From positions 1-37,736 of the IMG/VR virus record IMGVR_UViG_3300008107_000388: DNA of 37,736 bases, one strand, 5' to 3'. This document shows, in pieces, positions 2,786 through 34,731 of the stretch. Position 1 is the first letter of the stretch. Each line of letters starts with the position of its first letter. The notes beneath the pieces were generated by a model that had not been told where the DNA came from, made no database searches, and was given only the letters and a program-made list of their open reading frames with translations. A program made the position numbers and the translations under genes. Source of the stretch: a virus.

Positions 2786-3391
2786 TTAAGAAGAAAATCC
2801 TAAAGTAATAACTAAAACAGCACTGGATGAACTTAAAGCATTGTTAGTTATACTAGCATACAAAGTTTCTCCTACAGCAACATTGAAATTCACATTTGGT
2901 ACCCTAAAGCTATTACTCGTGTTGTTAACAGGAACAGATTGTAAATTTCCAATACTGCCACGACTATTAAAAATTGTTACTGTGGCAGTGCCAGAACCAT
3001 TTACTATTGTTGCAGACATATAGCTAATTCGTAAGTTTCTTGGAGCATAATTTGTAAAATAATAAATGTTTGAAACATTAACACCTGTAATGTTTAGTGT
3101 TGCTGTTGTATCTGCAAACGGTCCTGTTGAACCAACGGGGCCTGTTGCACCTGTTGAACCTATTGGTCCTTGAATACCAGTTGCACCAGTAGAACCTTGT
3201 GGACCTGTTGCACCCACAGGACCAATTGGTCCTGTAGCACCGGTTGTTCCTGCACCCGTAGATCCAATTGGTCCGGTTGAACCCGTAGATCCAATTGGTC
3301 CAGTTGAACCCGTTGCACCTATCGGACCAATTGGGCCCGTAGCACCTCGGCCTAAACCGCTACTTGCAAGTTCACTTTGTTTTAATGGCAT
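2786..3391 (-). CDS. Short collagen-like fibre protein
   Basis: A 201-aa protein in three parts. Residues 1-15 form a non-collagenous leader ([20 protein letters not shown]). Roughly residues 16-90 are uninterrupted Gly-X-Y triplets, mostly GAT, GPI and GST with one GAG. About 105 C-terminal residues form a beta-rich globular domain ([20 protein letters not shown] onward). Collagen-like triplets in phages build trimeric rods, and the terminal domain probably trimerises and may bind the receptor. It lies between the glycine-rich adhesin and the PA14-like protein in a tightly spaced set of fibre genes. The C-terminal domain has no family I can name. Confidence 0.75.

Positions 3392-3945: not shown

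Positions 3946-3946
<1 letters not shown>
3395..3946 (-). CDS. PA14/GLEYA-like lectin-type virion protein
   Basis: About 183 aa. The ATG at 3946 overlaps the stop of the upstream collagen fibre gene (TGATG), so this start is preferred over a TTG three bases earlier. The core from about residue 70 reads FSVQWLGYFLPNTTETYTFF, then SDDASYVWVG, then a glycine-rich turn and ASLTAGIYYPIRIQFGE. This is the classic PA14/GLEYA pattern (beta-sandwich, 'GY' strand, 'SDDgs.lwi', 'pi.i.y.n..g'). Such domains bind glycans in yeast flocculins and in bacterial toxins and adhesins. In a phage fibre island it suggests a carbohydrate-binding receptor module, perhaps a cap on the collagen rod encoded just upstream. 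Family assignment is by eye, and receptor binding is inferred. Confidence 0.68.
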
Positions 3947-12172
<8,226 letters not shown>

Positions 12173-30158: not shown

Positions 30159-30783
30159 TTTTTTGTTTTTCTTTCATTTCTATAAAATTGTTCAATAGAT
30201 TAGTTGAAAATGTTTGCATATCGGTAGACAATGAAATTCTCATATTTTTAGATTTATTAACATCTACAGAATGTAAAACATATGATGGAAAAAATACAAG
30301 TTTTCCTGGTTTCGGTATTATTTTTTTAAATTTAGCTCCATTAACATTTTTATAAACCTCTTTGTCCCAATCTACACCACCACGGGGATCAATTAATAAT
30401 AGGTCACCACAATCATCATCTGTTTGTATATAGTATGTTGCTGTTATTTTACTACCTCCATGATCATGTATTGCCATGGATTGTCCAGGTAAACTATAGT
30501 TAACCCAACCTCTTGTGTGATGAAATTCATATTCATCATAATTTTTTGCAACATAATCATAAGTAAGTTCTGTCACCATTTTAATTATATAATCATTTAA
30601 TGATTTTACATAAGGTGTATTCATCACCCATATATTAGAATCTTTGATATTTTTAATTTTTTCATCTGTGTAAAAATATTTCAATTCACTTAATAAATTA
30701 TCATTAAATTTTTCATCAAAATCTGTTTGTATTTCCCACACCGGTGTCACCCACCAATCATTACGAATTATATTCATAGACAT
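30148..30783 (-). CDS. 2OG-Fe(II) oxygenase (PF13759-like)
   Basis: 211 aa. Core: RGWVNYSLPGQSMAIHDHGG then KITATYYIQ with metal ligands in HDH (106-108), and the C-terminal KPGKLVFFPSYVLHSVDVN with distal H171 followed by R182 in MRISLSTD. This is the phage '2OG-Fe(II) oxygenase' pattern common in T4-like cyano- and pelagiphages. It overlaps both neighbours by about ten bases. It is clearly paralogous to the 241-aa oxygenase two genes upstream (FxPSYVLHxVxxNKSxxxRI). Substrate unknown; protein or small-molecule hydroxylation is possible. Confidence 0.82.
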   Translation of the reverse strand: MSMNIIRNDWWVTPVWEIQTDFDEKFNDNLLSELKYFYTDEKIKNIKDSNIWVMNTPYVKSLNDYIIKMVTELTYDYVAKNYDEYEFHHTRGWVNYSLPGQSMAIHDHGGSKITATYYIQTDDDCGDLLLIDPRGGVDWDKEVYKNVNGAKFKKIIPKPGKLVFFPSYVLHSVDVNKSKNMRISLSTDMQTFSTNLLNNFIEMKEKQKNVV

Positions 30784-31313
30784 CCAGTTTCTTTTAACAT
30801 CTCACACACCGATTCATAATTATGTTTTCTTGTGCCTAAAGTTACGGCTTTTCTAAAAGGTTCTTCTTTATCCGATTCGACACTATGAATTTTCTTAACA
30901 TTTAATACCCAAACTTCCATTGGTTGTGCCACGAAACTACCAACTTCTTTTAATTGCTCTTTTTTGTATATGAATCCATTTGTTTGATTTTTTATTTGAA
31001 ATATCTGCAAATCATCTACCAAAGGTTCATAATATATCGTTTTACAGTTATCAGTTTCAATGTAAAAATTAATTGTGGTTAATATATCACTATCTGTATG
31101 TGGTGGTATATTTCGATTGATGGTCATAACAGTTAAATAAAAATCTTCCCAATATTTTTTAGGTAAAATCTTATACATTATTTCGGGTTCAGGTGACCAT
31201 ATCTTTTTATAATCTATACCTTTATTATCAACACCCGTAAACGTATTCAACCCCTGTGTAACGGCATATATGGGTTTAGAAAACTCATAATTTAACTTTG
31301 TGAACATTTCCAT
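30774..31313 (-). CDS. 2OG-oxygenase-like protein (179 aa)
   Basis: A shorter cupin-type protein. Residues 64-78 read TINRNIPPHTDSDILTTINF with H72 and D74 as likely metal ligands. VWVLNVKKIHSVESDKEEPF carries distal H143, and R154 follows in RKAVTLGT. The motif order matches Fe(II)/2OG oxygenases, but the sequence is far from its two neighbours. It overlaps the flanking oxygenases, so it is likely to be translated with them. Confidence 0.68.
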   Translation of the reverse strand: MEMFTKLNYEFSKPIYAVTQGLNTFTGVDNKGIDYKKIWSPEPEIMYKILPKKYWEDFYLTVMTINRNIPPHTDSDILTTINFYIETDNCKTIYYEPLVDDLQIFQIKNQTNGFIYKKEQLKEVGSFVAQPMEVWVLNVKKIHSVESDKEEPFRKAVTLGTRKHNYESVCEMLKETGCL

Positions 31314-32017
31314 TCTTTAATTTTTTTCATTCGACTGGCCCAACTTTTTAATATTACAGTATTATTGGTGTTTTTGTCAACCACCTTTCGTAAATCGGTA
31401 GATAAAGATATACGTAAATCATTTGATTTATTCTCCGTTACACCATGAAGAACATATGATGGTGTAAAGACCAATTTACCTTCAATAGGTTTGATTCTTC
31501 GTTCTTTCACTACAGGCGTACCGGTTAAAGTGGTGTTTTTCCAATCAATTGCGTTGGAACTGTCAAATAGTACCAACTCTCCACATCCTTCTGGTGCTTG
31601 TATGTAATATGTGGCCGCAATAGCGGATTCTGTATGGCCATGTACTTCTAAACCTTCTCCCGGTTCATGCACATTAACCCAGCCAAAGAAGTGCTCACAA
31701 CCTTTAAGGTTTAACATTCTGATTTCTGGAATTTGTTGGGTTATTGTTTTTGTAACAATATCAATAATTTCTTGTTTGATAATGTTTAGATTGGGCTTGT
31801 CATAATCCCATATGCTGTCTTTTGGTTTTTTATCTTGGCCAGTGGCGATGCCATAACCTATACTATAAATTTCGTCTAGTAGTTTTTTATTGAATTCTGC
31901 ATTAAATTTTGTTTGAACTTCCCATATTGGAGATTTCCAAAATAAGTTTTGCGCATTTTGATACCAGTGAAACTTTTCACGGTCATTCAGTTGTTCTATT
32001 TGATTTCCACTCATCAT
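31292..32017 (-). CDS. 2OG-Fe(II) oxygenase (PF13759-like)
   Basis: 241 aa. Core FGWVNVHEPGEGLEVHGHTE then SAIAATYYIQAPEGCGELVL (candidate metal ligands H126/H128), IKPIEGKLVFTPSYVLHGVT with H191 and LRISLSTD with R202. It shares order and wording with the 211-aa paralogue, suggesting gene duplication in the phage lineage followed by insertion of the 179-aa gene between them. The start is uncertain between two adjacent ATGs. Substrate unknown. Confidence 0.82.
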   Translation of the reverse strand: MMSGNQIEQLNDREKFHWYQNAQNLFWKSPIWEVQTKFNAEFNKKLLDEIYSIGYGIATGQDKKPKDSIWDYDKPNLNIIKQEIIDIVTKTITQQIPEIRMLNLKGCEHFFGWVNVHEPGEGLEVHGHTESAIAATYYIQAPEGCGELVLFDSSNAIDWKNTTLTGTPVVKERRIKPIEGKLVFTPSYVLHGVTENKSNDLRISLSTDLRKVVDKNTNNTVILKSWASRMKKIKEWKCSQS

Positions 32018-32309
32018 ATGCCATAATCAAAGGTTGTGCTTGCTCACGATTAATTCGAACTTCTGTACTCATTTCCGAAGCTGTGTTTGCTGTCTGCCAT
32101 GGTGTGCCTTTGATGTGGTCCAATATCGGGTGATTGCCAGCATTTAATAATTCGGACAACACATTCACATGAGTTGTTAACATGGTAAAGACGTTTGCAC
32201 GTTGTTCTTCAGGTAAATTTAGTATTGCATTGAAAAAAATATTGTTGAAGTAGTAATCAACATACTCATGCAATAAATCTCTCTCGATGACGATTTCATT
32301 TTCATTCAT
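31983..32309 (-). CDS. Hypothetical protein (108 aa)
   Basis: Starts MNENEIVIERDLLHEYVDYY, all-helical with an acidic N-terminus. The middle reads NLPEEQRANVFTMLTTHVNV and the end EVRINREQAQPLIMAYDEWK. No recognised family. It lies between the Cys-rich protein and the first oxygenase with overlaps on both sides, so it belongs to the same transcription unit and could be an assembly or adaptor factor. Confidence 0.6.
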   Translation of the reverse strand: MNENEIVIERDLLHEYVDYYFNNIFFNAILNLPEEQRANVFTMLTTHVNVLSELLNAGNHPILDHIKGTPWQTANTASEMSTEVRINREQAQPLIMAYDEWKSNRTTE

Positions 32310-33249
32310 TGTATTTTTTCCTTATGAATAATTTATTATTAAATAATTTAACTATTTTAGAATAAATTTCTGCTGAGTAATATGTTCCCGCAAATGTAAT
32401 CCAAATAAAATATACGGTCAATAAACCAACTGGTTTATTTTTATTTGGTAACTTACCTACCAAACGGCTAATTGGTCGACCAACACGCATCAATATACGG
32501 CCAATATCATTATCTCTATTCACAATATTCATAATATAAGCCATATGTTGCGACCAAGGAGTTGCTATACGGTGAGCCCACTTAATAAATTTTTGTTTTT
32601 CAGCTTTTTTACGTTCATCTTTGGACATCCAAAGCATAAAGTCCGGAGATTTGCCTTCCATGCCATCAACAATAACTTGAGCCCAACGAATATAACCAGC
32701 ATAAACTTCTGGATCATTTTCTCTCAACCAATTACCATATTTTTGGTCAGCATAAAAAATATCATGGGGCATCATACCGAGTTGATATAATTTATGACAA
32801 ATAATTTTTGAACAATTACAAGCTTGAGCATAACATTGAAAACTTGTACAATTATATGTTGGTGGCGGTTGTTGATTACAATTTCCTGTTTGTAACCATG
32901 ATTGGCTATCACAATTTGCACAATTAATAGCTCCACAATTAGCACACACATGGCAATTTTGACTTTGATCACCGCATCCACAATTACAATTTGATGGGTC
33001 AACTACAGGACAATTTCCTGAAGCGCAGTTTTCACAGCAATTATTAATTCCCGTGCCGTTGCAATTTCCTGCAGTATTTTTTTGAAAATAACTTAGGCCA
33101 TAAAATCCAGCCATATTAGGAGTACCTGGTCGTATAGACGGCAACACTAAATTGTTTAAAAAATTTAAATCACTAGAATATGTTGATGATTGACCAATTT
33201 CTTGATTAATTTGCGATACGGATATTGGTCCAGATGATGGTAATGTCAT
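32302..33249 (-). CDS. Virion-type protein with a 19-cysteine Asn-Cys-rich domain
   Basis: 315 aa in three parts. Residues 1-57 (MTLPSSGPISVSQINQEIGQ ... MAGFYGLSYF) are the short module found at the N-termini of many phage virion proteins. Residues 63-151 hold 19 cysteines, 13 directly preceded by Asn (for example C88, C90, C99, C105, C110, C113), with Gly and Gln spacers. Residues about 150-260 are a helical domain (LYQLGMMPHDIFYADQKYGN, WAHRIATPWSQHMAYIMN) that I have seen in other phage proteins without assigned function. A C-terminal hydrophobic segment lies at about 275-293. The TATAAATAC late promoter just upstream implies late, structural-type expression. It follows a radical SAM maturase gene and is its obvious candidate substrate; metal binding is the main alternative. 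Confidence 0.7.
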   Translation of the reverse strand: MTLPSSGPISVSQINQEIGQSSTYSSDLNFLNNLVLPSIRPGTPNMAGFYGLSYFQKNTAGNCNGTGINNCCENCASGNCPVVDPSNCNCGCGDQSQNCHVCANCGAINCANCDSQSWLQTGNCNQQPPPTYNCTSFQCYAQACNCSKIICHKLYQLGMMPHDIFYADQKYGNWLRENDPEVYAGYIRWAQVIVDGMEGKSPDFMLWMSKDERKKAEKQKFIKWAHRIATPWSQHMAYIMNIVNRDNDIGRILMRVGRPISRLVGKLPNKNKPVGLLTVYFIWITFAGTYYSAEIYSKIVKLFNNKLFIRKKYNE

Positions 33250-33275
33250 TTTTACGTCCTAATCTTTATTATTCA

Positions 33276-33284
33276 GTATTTATA
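33276..33284 (-). promoter_or_regulatory. T4-type late promoter (TATAAATAC)
   Basis: Exact TATAAATAC on the minus strand, identical to the box before the baseplate operon. It overlaps the stop codon of the radical SAM gene and lies 27 bases before the ATG of the Cys-rich protein. It gives a short leader with AGGACG as ribosome-binding site. Confidence 0.75.
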
Positions 33285-34731
33285 TTGTTTCTACTTTGGA
33301 TTTTCCGTAAATTTCGACACCTTCAATCACACCAATCTTCTCACTAATTATTTTGATAGGTATAATTTTCTTTTTCAAATCTTCCTTATGTTCGTAAATT
33401 GTACCAAAAATATCTTGCCTTTCGAGTGGTAGACCATCACCTTTTATGAGTGTTGGTATATAACCTGTTATATCCTGTATAGCTAAAACAAAAAATGGTA
33501 TGTTATCCGAATATGAATTTGCACAAGATATGTCCCAAAATTTTTCATCCAAAAACATACAGGCACCCTTACAAATATGTAGTACAGGACAACCAGAACA
33601 TTCTTTACGGTTCGACCAATGTGTTGATGATTTAATTGATACATTATCATAATCTTCTAATGTACCTCCGTGATGCGACTCGCCATTTTTTGACATTTCA
33701 AGAGAACTTACGTTTTGGCACGTCATTACATTACCACGCAAATCTACAGCTAAAGCTTGTTCTTCATCCATGCCACATTTTTGACCTAAAAAATCCGATT
33801 TTCGGTGAGCAAGAACACTTTTGGTAAATTGAAACGTTTTTTCTTTTGGAATAGTGAATCCAATTTTGCCGCCTGTGGAAAATATGTCAGCAAAAGCCGT
33901 TCTTCGATATTCAAAATGGTCTTTTTTTGTTAGTAAAGAATTTGAAATTCCTTCTTCATCGTAAGCATCTACGATACCTCCTTCACCTAGTGTTACAAAT
34001 TCATCACCAGTTAAATTCACAAACCATTCATAAACTTCTTTACGACTTCTATTTTTTGCGTTCATCATAGGATTAAAACTTATTACTTTACCCAAACGTT
34101 TCATCATTCTATAAAAACCCAATATTCTTTCTTTTTGTTCAGGATCGTCAAACGGATCTGGCCCACGAACTGATTGACCAGGTCCATCATGTGAAATGGC
34201 CACATCAAAATCATACATCATCAACCAATCAATAATATCATCTGTAAGAATAGATCCGTTTGTAATAACAGAAAATCTTGGTTTTCTTTCCCAATTCTCA
34301 AATTTTTCTGCCAACAATTCTGCTAGTGGTTTCATTGTTTTCCAATAAACAAATGGTTCACCACCCCAAAATTCTATTTTCAATCCTTTACTTTCATCAA
34401 ATTCTAAAACTTCTAATTTTTTCATAAAAGCATCAATGTCTTTTTTAGATGTTTCAGGCATACGTTCAACAAATTTTTGTGAGCAATAATCACAAGAATA
34501 ATTACAACTTAATCCCATTTGAATTTTAAGTGTTGTGATTAACTTTGATTTCTTTAAAGGATTGTTTTTATTAAATGCTTTATATGGTTTTGTGTATTCT
34601 TTAGGAATTTCAATTGGTTGCGGATATTCATATACGATACCATTGGCGTCCTTTAAAATATTGCTCATGTTATCATAATAAAATATTTTCTTATCATCTT
34701 TTGATTTTTCAGCGTGTATTTCAAATAACAT
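33280..34731 (-). CDS. Radical SAM/SPASM peptide maturase (anSME-like)
   Basis: 483 aa. The radical SAM cluster motif CxxxCxxC is at C76-C80-C83 in GLSCNYSCDYCSQKF. The SAM-contact motif is GGEP at 123-126. The C-terminal SPASM domain shows the full seven-cysteine order: C319, GNVMTC ending at C338, then C378-x2-C381-x5-C387-x3-C391 and C403, enough for two auxiliary Fe-S clusters. This architecture belongs to anaerobic sulfatase maturases and to RiPP maturases that make thioether or carbon cross-links on peptides. The next gene encodes a Cys/Asn-rich protein. The start overlaps the upstream stop (TAATG) with ribosome-binding site AGGAAAA. No sulfatase is present in the window, so a peptide/protein substrate in the phage is favoured. 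Confidence 0.88.
   Translation of the reverse strand: MLFEIHAEKSKDDKKIFYYDNMSNILKDANGIVYEYPQPIEIPKEYTKPYKAFNKNNPLKKSKLITTLKIQMGLSCNYSCDYCSQKFVERMPETSKKDIDAFMKKLEVLEFDESKGLKIEFWGGEPFVYWKTMKPLAELLAEKFENWERKPRFSVITNGSILTDDIIDWLMMYDFDVAISHDGPGQSVRGPDPFDDPEQKERILGFYRMMKRLGKVISFNPMMNAKNRSRKEVYEWFVNLTGDEFVTLGEGGIVDAYDEEGISNSLLTKKDHFEYRRTAFADIFSTGGKIGFTIPKEKTFQFTKSVLAHRKSDFLGQKCGMDEEQALAVDLRGNVMTCQNVSSLEMSKNGESHHGGTLEDYDNVSIKSSTHWSNRKECSGCPVLHICKGACMFLDEKFWDISCANSYSDNIPFFVLAIQDITGYIPTLIKGDGLPLERQDIFGTIYEHKEDLKKKIIPIKIISEKIGVIEGVEIYGKSKVETI

Follow-up and report, generated by a model that had tools for sequence, protein, structure and literature searches.

Predicted cross-linking of cysteine-asparagine segments in phage fibre and adhesin proteins by a virus-encoded radical SAM/SPASM enzyme

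A 37.7-kb virus record (IMGVR_UViG_3300008107_000388; 37,736 nt, all of which is called the window here) encodes a radical S-adenosylmethionine (SAM) enzyme of the SPASM type, followed directly by a protein with a dense block of cysteine (Cys) and asparagine (Asn) residues. Comparative genomics strongly supports the Cys-repeat protein as the predicted substrate of this enzyme, which is probably a phage-encoded maturase that installs cross-links in the Cys-Asn segments of virion fibres or adhesins. By its gene content the window phage is T4-like. Baseplate wedge and hub/lysozyme proteins were identified with PHROGs, and Pfam matches to gp53, T4 baseplate, gp32 and gp59 were found, while the tail-tube gp19 remained below its cut-off. 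Bacterial contamination of the window was rejected on account of the baseplate, hub/lysozyme, gp53, gp32 and gp59 matches.

The enzyme and its cysteine-rich partner

The enzyme gene (33280-34731, minus strand) codes for a protein of 483 amino acids (aa) containing ten Cys. Three of them form the CxxxCxxC motif of the radical SAM core (C76-x3-C80-x2-C83; residues 76-83, 34483-34506, minus strand), which is accompanied by GGEP from residue 123, and the other seven, at positions 319, 338, 378, 381, 387, 391 and 403, correspond to the seven-Cys SPASM pattern (residues 319-403, 33523-33777, minus strand). All ten are conserved throughout an alignment of 24 sequences. The protein matches Pfam Radical_SAM (3.9e-9) and the SPASM model TIGR04085 (33.5 bits, above the cut-off of 27), and residues 24-408 match phrog_1802 (5.1e-60), a family described as 'radical SAM domain-containing protein' with no further function or partner named. 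An AlphaFold2 model built from 30 sequences reached a predicted local distance difference test score (pLDDT) of 87.5, and its top Foldseek matches are anSMEcpe (the best, 7.4e-13), TigE, CteB, ChlB, SuiB and SkfB, which we take to be enzymes modifying peptides or proteins. On motifs and fold alike, the window enzyme is a complete radical SAM/SPASM protein.

The general SPASM model was the only one of 25 listed NCBIfam models to exceed its cut-off. The top match was NF047865 for the ranthipeptide maturase PapB, the enzyme of freyrasin (1.5e-24; 86.8 bits against a cut-off of 340), and this model matches 30 of 30 members of the enzyme family. Lower scores were obtained with TIGR03906 for QhpD, itself a SPASM enzyme (6.1e-20; 71.3 bits against 453), and with TIGR03942 for the anaerobic sulfatase-maturating enzyme, anSME (2.7e-11; 43.2 bits against 349.45). 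Both the profiles and the structural model place the enzyme nearest to peptide-modifying SPASM enzymes. Among other relatives, radical SAM proteins of Campylobacter phages gave distant partial matches, and no plasmid was found to carry a relative at E 1e-20. The record of phage 2-1 names p30 of Achromobacter phage JWF as a match to phrog_1802.

An earlier note on this DNA, made from the sequence alone, had described a complete anSME-type maturase. Its completeness stands, in CxxxCxxC, GGEP and the seven-Cys SPASM region, but the anSME label does not, and a simple anSME identity was rejected on the model scores. An anSME-like oxidation of Cys to formylglycine, which would leave the fibre tips with aldehyde groups, would agree with the shared fold, with anSMEcpe as the best Foldseek match and with the annotation of the JWF enzyme as anSME; it is nevertheless very improbable, since the score lies far under the anSME family cut-off, since PapB, QhpD and other models for maturases of ribosomally synthesised and post-translationally modified peptides (RiPPs) outscore anSME, and since the sulfatase motif CxPxR is absent from the Cys region of the window protein. 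The note's statement that no sulfatase is present was borne out for the 20 window proteins scanned against Pfam, the remaining window open reading frames (ORFs) lying outside that scan.

The Cys-rich protein (315 aa; 32302-33249, minus strand) is taken as the predicted substrate from its sequence and its co-occurrence with the enzyme. Its gene follows the enzyme gene on the same strand after a gap of 30 nt, and its 19 Cys all fall within residues 63-151, in agreement with the note, which had placed them in about 90 residues directly after the enzyme. This Cys/Asn-rich region of 89 residues (32797-33063, minus strand) is the predicted cross-linked core; assuming a Cys frequency of 0.75%, the binomial chance of such clustering is about 3e-22. 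It is preceded by an N-terminal module (residues 1-57, 'PISVSQINQEIG...FYGLSY'; 33079-33249, minus strand) and followed by a helical C-terminal domain (residues 152-315; 32305-32796, minus strand). With a maturase gene beside a putative precursor gene, the arrangement resembles that of RiPP loci, as had been noticed before.

In the AlphaFold2 model of the Cys-rich protein, block means of pLDDT are 25-45 for residues 61-150 and 73-88 for residues 151-300. The low values would fit a Cys segment that becomes ordered only after modification, although scores alone prove nothing. A Foldseek search of this model at E 0.001 returned nothing from the PDB and four predicted viral proteins, namely a DUF4815 protein and phage proteins to which no function is assigned. 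The C-terminal domain is common to other phage proteins, including the DUF4815 protein and a Synechococcus phage protein. In the latter (SynMITS9220M01, L092:3669-5519), a Gly-rich protein, the domain stands behind a long poly-Pro and poly-Arg tract, from which it appears that this domain caps different low-complexity segments. The N-terminal module has its own relatives at the head of Gly-rich adhesin-like proteins (L044 and L049), and a tblastn search with the corresponding module of L019 gave weak matches (E 0.09-0.6) in four Vibrio phage records, three of them annotated as tail fibre. A short Cys-core protein gave no match in a tblastn search against 'phages'.

The sequence TATAAATA (33277-33284, minus strand), which we take to be the T4 late -10 motif, lies 35 nt upstream of the ATG of the Cys gene, in line with the late promoter of its own that the note had proposed. 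It occurs twice in the window, both times on the minus strand. Exact TATAAATA is present within 70 nt of the Cys gene in 13 of 40 cases, and NATAAATA is found 15-50 nt upstream of 28 of the 40 Cys genes (22 of 27 long forms) as compared with 24 of 436 other ATG-started ORFs. These counts suggest a separate late-type promoter for the majority of Cys genes, which is what one would expect of a particle protein. The proposed virion role of the window protein is drawn from its relatives, its promoter and the sharing of its domains.

Pairing of the enzyme with Cys repeats in other loci

A scan of viral contigs with the alignment of Cys proteins yielded 108 relatives, the best 80 of which were kept (48 clusters at 90% identity). 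The enzyme is encoded on the same strand within 1.5 kb in 79 of these best 80 of 108, and the single locus without it, L336, begins only 4 nt away from where its contig stops; frequent occurrence of the Cys-rich protein without the maturase, which the earlier note had named as evidence against enzymatic cross-linking of a virion protein, was therefore not observed. The gene order varies: either gene may come first, and the two may be separated by about 1.4 kb of spacer. In L013 this spacer (L013:7437-8866) consists of two adjacent desaturase-like ORFs, the first belonging to PF00487. Three forms of the Cys protein were distinguished. The long one has the helical C-terminal domain seen in the window protein. 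The short one, of 126-173 aa, has CNCNCNC as its end in L042, L047, L048 and L051 and a different Cys-rich tail in other loci. In the third, represented by L044 and L049, the body is Gly-rich and adhesin-like.

With the enzyme as bait, 116 loci were collected, comprising the best 80 of 98 viral loci, 34 genome loci and two phage isolates. The enzyme hidden Markov model (HMM) matches 115 of the 116, which form 83 clusters at 95%. A partner ORF was recognised by regular expression in 70 of the 83 clusters, with the Cys repeat as a core in 42, as a C-terminal tail in 24 and as a tail followed by a Hint domain in four. The same expression found 3 of 784 ORFs in control loci, all three with control-pattern ends.

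In a distant clade of the enzyme the Cys repeat forms the end of a fibre protein. Upstream of the enzyme gene, L066, L069, L070, L072-L075, L077, L078 and L080 encode a protein with NCNCNC at its end, and L067 contains three small ORFs with NCNCACNC or NCNCNCNC ends, while L076 has no Cys-tail gene and L068 and L079 are cut. Tail-fibre PHROGs were matched by all seven tail-type partners tested (L066, L069, L078, L080, L091, L262 and L263) and by neither of the two core-type partners tested (L049 and L051). The note's proposal of enzymatic cross-linking of a virion-type protein is supported by the co-occurrence, and its virion part is strengthened by the distant clade, where proteins classed by PHROGs with tail fibres carry the NCNCNC end; the window protein itself matches no tail-fibre family. 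A fibre ORF with a Cys tail was also found, by eye and with a motif list, in 22 of the 34 genome loci, mostly in Burkholderiales (Limnohabitans, Comamonadaceae, Burkholderia) and in alphaproteobacterial contigs. In the 23 whole genomes behind 27 of these 34 loci, DNA coding for CNCNC was found in 20, against 6 for the backwards control; the pattern misses tails like NCNCDCNCC, so that this search contributes little. Two distant-clade loci have, just behind the enzyme (L069:7684-8631 and L078:7640-8587), an ORF resembling by eye a TRAP-transporter solute receptor, and in L066 (7350-7883) an ORF overlapping the enzyme end looks, again by eye, heme oxygenase-like.

The pairing was also recovered with an enzyme-free bait, the DNA coding for C-terminal NCNCNC followed by TAA or TAG, which gave at least 120 viral loci (129 matches, without dereplication). 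Among the matches listed, 94 in 85 loci are ends of ORFs of at least 80 aa; the enzyme is encoded on the same strand within 5 kb in 57 of these 85 loci, and whole records add seven, making 64 of 85. For NCNCNC ends of ORFs shorter than 80 aa, again among the matches listed, the enzyme was present within 5 kb in 0 of 35. In 12 of the 21 enzyme-less loci the contig ends 75-1423 nt downstream. A complete scan with the permuted control, CNCNCN before a stop codon, gave 47 loci, three of them with ORFs of at least 80 aa, and the enzyme was found in 0 of the 47 stretches. Chance as the cause of the pairing was rejected on this control.

That both genes merely travel in one conserved phage module, with no functional link, is hardly credible. 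Neighbouring genes do tend to stay together in related phages, and the counts given here are phylogenetically non-independent and are biased by best-N selection towards the kept loci. Against such co-inheritance, the Cys repeat and the enzyme stay paired while the partner changes from a core protein, up- or downstream, to a fibre or three small fibres, and while the genome background changes from the T4-like window to the siphophage JWF and to bacterial contigs. Moreover, the tail fibres of GB2A, RHph_N3_13 and ctIqW946, which have only a 39-residue repeat in common with the fibre of L078, end without Cys, and these phages are absent from the enzyme search listings.

Four loci have a Hint domain on the C-terminal side of the Cys tail. 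The fibre of phage JWF reads NCNCDCNCNCS and continues with CFPAGTMVLMADG, the start of a Hint domain (Pfam Hom_end_hint, 3e-12, above the cut-off), and in phage 2-1 NCNCDCNCS is followed by the same CFPAGTMVLMADG, the Hint domain being recognised by eye. A Hint domain after the Cys tail is also present in a Burkholderia paludis MSh1 contig (Hom_end_hint 29.5 bits, just below the cut-off of 32.1) and, by eye, in a metagenome-assembled genome of Magnetospirillum. In a FastTree phylogeny the MSh1 enzyme stands beside the enzymes of the two isolates and the Magnetospirillum enzyme elsewhere, so that the four loci span a 16-tip group that includes tailed loci without Hint. Hint domains self-excise at their first Cys, so that the Cys tail would form the terminus of the mature fibre; this speaks for a need of the tail to be exposed or activated at its C-terminus.

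A divergent form occurs in a Parasutterella muris contig (L284) and its viral relative L375, which encode three small fibre-like proteins with tails such as HCSYCSYCSYCSQC and NCTTVNCTTVNC. The Cys-tailed genes are followed by an immunoglobulin (Ig)-like ORF and then by two consecutive radical SAM genes (L284:8007-10237 and L375:5124-7239), the first of which is above the Pfam cut-off. The spacing of the repeat thus varies between lineages, while its pairing with the enzyme appears to be kept.

The short Cys proteins could alternatively be precursors of a diffusible RiPP, such as an antibacterial or anti-competitor peptide, and not virion parts, and at 126-173 aa they do resemble a leader with a C-terminal Cys core. 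This is very improbable, given that the distant clade pairs the same enzyme family with full tail fibres, that in L044 and L049 the core is part of a larger protein with a Gly-rich, adhesin-like body, and that the late-type promoter suggests a structural protein.

Proposed cross-links and their alternatives

The residue between the Cys of the CXC repeats is mostly Asn. In 28 distinct tails it is Asn 78 times, alanine (Ala) 13, aspartate (Asp) 7 and Gly 5 times, Asn making up 8.4% of the remainder of these proteins, and in 43 core proteins, counted without dereplication, it is Asn 140 times, Ala 95, Asp 22, Thr 3 and Gly 2 times. The cross-links are most likely thioethers from Cys to Asn, Asp or Ala, both the bond type and the bond positions being predictions; they are to be expected because the beta carbons of Asn and Asp are known acceptors and because NCNC contains N-x-x-C.

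Installation of these cross-links would proceed as follows. Before or during assembly, the dedicated maturase would act on the Cys/Asn-repeat segment of the fibre or adhesin, abstracting hydrogen from residues beside the cysteines and closing Cys-to-Asn/Asp/Ala thioethers. A floppy segment at the fibre end would thus be turned into a rigid, redox-proof cross-linked knob, which could contact the host or lock the fibre chains together. Some phages would use a Hint domain to remove the sequence past the tail, leaving a mature fibre that ends in the Cys tail. The helical C-terminal domain of the window protein may serve as a cap or chaperone, and adjoining 2-oxoglutarate (2OG) oxygenases may hydroxylate the same fibre or others.

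Several observations weigh against this proposal. The window enzyme scores far under every specific NCBIfam cut-off, so its reaction is not readable from the models. The Cys region of the window protein is internal and not C-terminal, and no PHROG match was found for this protein. Ala occupies 95 of 262 CXC positions of the core proteins and, unlike Asn and Asp, has presumably no activated beta carbon, so that more than one bond type may be needed. Nine of the NCNCNC loci, with no enzyme in the record, encode other proteins, namely a 203-aa family in five loci (L107, L137, L156, L172 and L190; DUF6712 in the one member scanned), a 185/190-aa family in three (L104, L151 and L164), and L145 singly. 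Finally, 13 of the 83 enzyme clusters (20 of 115 loci without dereplication) have no partner by regular expression, among them L076 and L280 in spite of a sufficiently long upstream flank, L289, where only the enzyme start is present at a contig end, and L290 and L291, which are only about 30% identical. On inspection, two of the 13 clusters do have a partner: L010, L011 and L031 have a 16-Cys ORF truncated at the contig end, and in L051 and L052 the partner overlaps the open frame of the enzyme. Of the others, L043, L275, L277, L278 and L285 have less than 1.6 kb of upstream sequence, and L284 has the Cys tails of another spacing.

An unlikely alternative is that the Cys/Asn tail is mainly a metal- or Fe-S-binding or disulfide segment, and that the enzyme either makes a limited change of another kind, such as one C-C bond or an epimerisation, or has a third protein as its target, for example the Ig-like ORF. 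The density of Cys would suit metal binding or disulfides, yet the spacing differs between lineages while the Cys-repeat character stays. As for a third protein, the Ig-like ORF, recognised by eye and giving no Pfam match in the two tested, is an equally constant neighbour in the distant clade, lying between fibre and enzyme in 13 of 15 viral and 25 of 34 genome loci, as against 0 of 47 controls. However, it occurs in only 5 of 65 close-clade loci and in neither isolate, whereas the Cys tail or core is present in both clades.

Thioether cross-linking of the fibres would have precedents among known systems. Passages of PMC8326336 describe beta-thioethers in the ranthipeptides NxxcA (Cys23-Asn20; maturase NxxcB) and freyrasin (Cys-Asp). 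PapB is the best model for the window enzyme; the differences are the virion-type substrate, the score of 87 bits against a cut-off of 340, and an N-x-x-C spacing that is only implied by NCNC. In QhpD/QhpC, according to passages of PMC7876137, QhpD joins Cys to Asp or Glu by several thioethers in a protein subunit, the gamma subunit of quinohemoprotein amine dehydrogenase, aided by an oxygenase of the same operon. The window system would likewise have a protein substrate and an adjoining oxygenase, but the substrate would be a phage fibre or adhesin, the acceptor set looks like Asn/Ala/Asp, and the score is 71 bits against 453. HK97-type capsids and the isopeptide links of pili and adhesins also reinforce an extracellular assembly covalently, but by self-catalysed Lys-Asn amide bonds with no maturase. 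Among the open-licence PMC papers listed in literature searches, judged by titles, the starts of abstracts and passages (including PMC9959647, PMC10783043 and PMC10457797), none was found to describe virion or tail-fibre proteins as substrates of a radical SAM enzyme; this coverage holds no preprints or subscription papers.

Whether the loci belong to a general system, encoded by viruses, for equipping the tail fibres of virions with RiPP-type cross-linked tips is in our judgement evenly balanced. Its exchangeable modules, distributed among T4-like, siphophage and prophage lineages, would be the maturase, Cys-repeat tails with spacings of 2, 3 or 5 residues, an adaptor protein, oxygenases and Hint self-cleavage. 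Such a system would be a class of virion post-translational modification not described before, and the resulting receptor-binding structures, chemically hardened or new, would be invisible from genome sequence alone. If the proposed cross-linking is correct, the fibres with which phages recognise their hosts bear structures made by the ribosome and cross-linked by an enzyme. Fibre tips would then need to be modelled and engineered differently, and proteomics would have to look for them in another way, as standard searches would miss cross-linked tails. A phage enzyme family so far known just as 'radical SAM' or anSME would gain a function, SPASM chemistry would reach beyond peptides and a single dehydrogenase subunit to the particles of viruses, and protein engineering would obtain a genetically encoded, redox-proof cross-link. 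The isolated phages JWF and 2-1 make the idea directly testable.

Accessory cassette and other genes of the window

Downstream of the Cys gene lies a conserved cassette, all on the minus strand. It comprises a 108-aa ORF (31983-32309; 31 of 116 loci), the 2OG-Fe(II) oxygenase A of PF13759, a possible second modifying enzyme (31292-32017), a 179-aa ORF with an HTD motif that looks 2OG-like by eye and has no Pfam match above cut-off (30774-31313; 41 of 116 loci), the 2OG-Fe(II) oxygenase B, also of PF13759 (30148-30783), and an aspartyl/asparaginyl beta-hydroxylase-like protein of PF05118 (29376-30158; 2.5e-8, above cut-off; 40 of 116 loci). The two oxygenases were identified by Pfam, PHROG and locus comparison. 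Relatives of the three enzymes assigned to PF13759 and PF05118 were found in 40-44 of the 116 loci. A home-made 2OG HMM, for which three remote members were verified with Pfam, all three having been used in its building, detected 66 of 116 loci and 1 of 47 controls. The cassette as an obligatory partner was rejected on these numbers, 66 of 116 with the home-made HMM and 44 of 116 with the window's own two proteins.

The window also encodes three collagen-like Gly-X-Y proteins of 201, 1159 and 1581 aa (2786-3391, 3946-7425 and 7427-12172, minus strand). Together with the two PF13759 oxygenases and the PF05118 hydroxylase-like gene, they make hydroxylation of phage collagen possible. A glycosyltransferase of PF00534 (12212-13372, minus strand) is situated amid fibre and baseplate genes and possibly has a role in fibre glycosylation.

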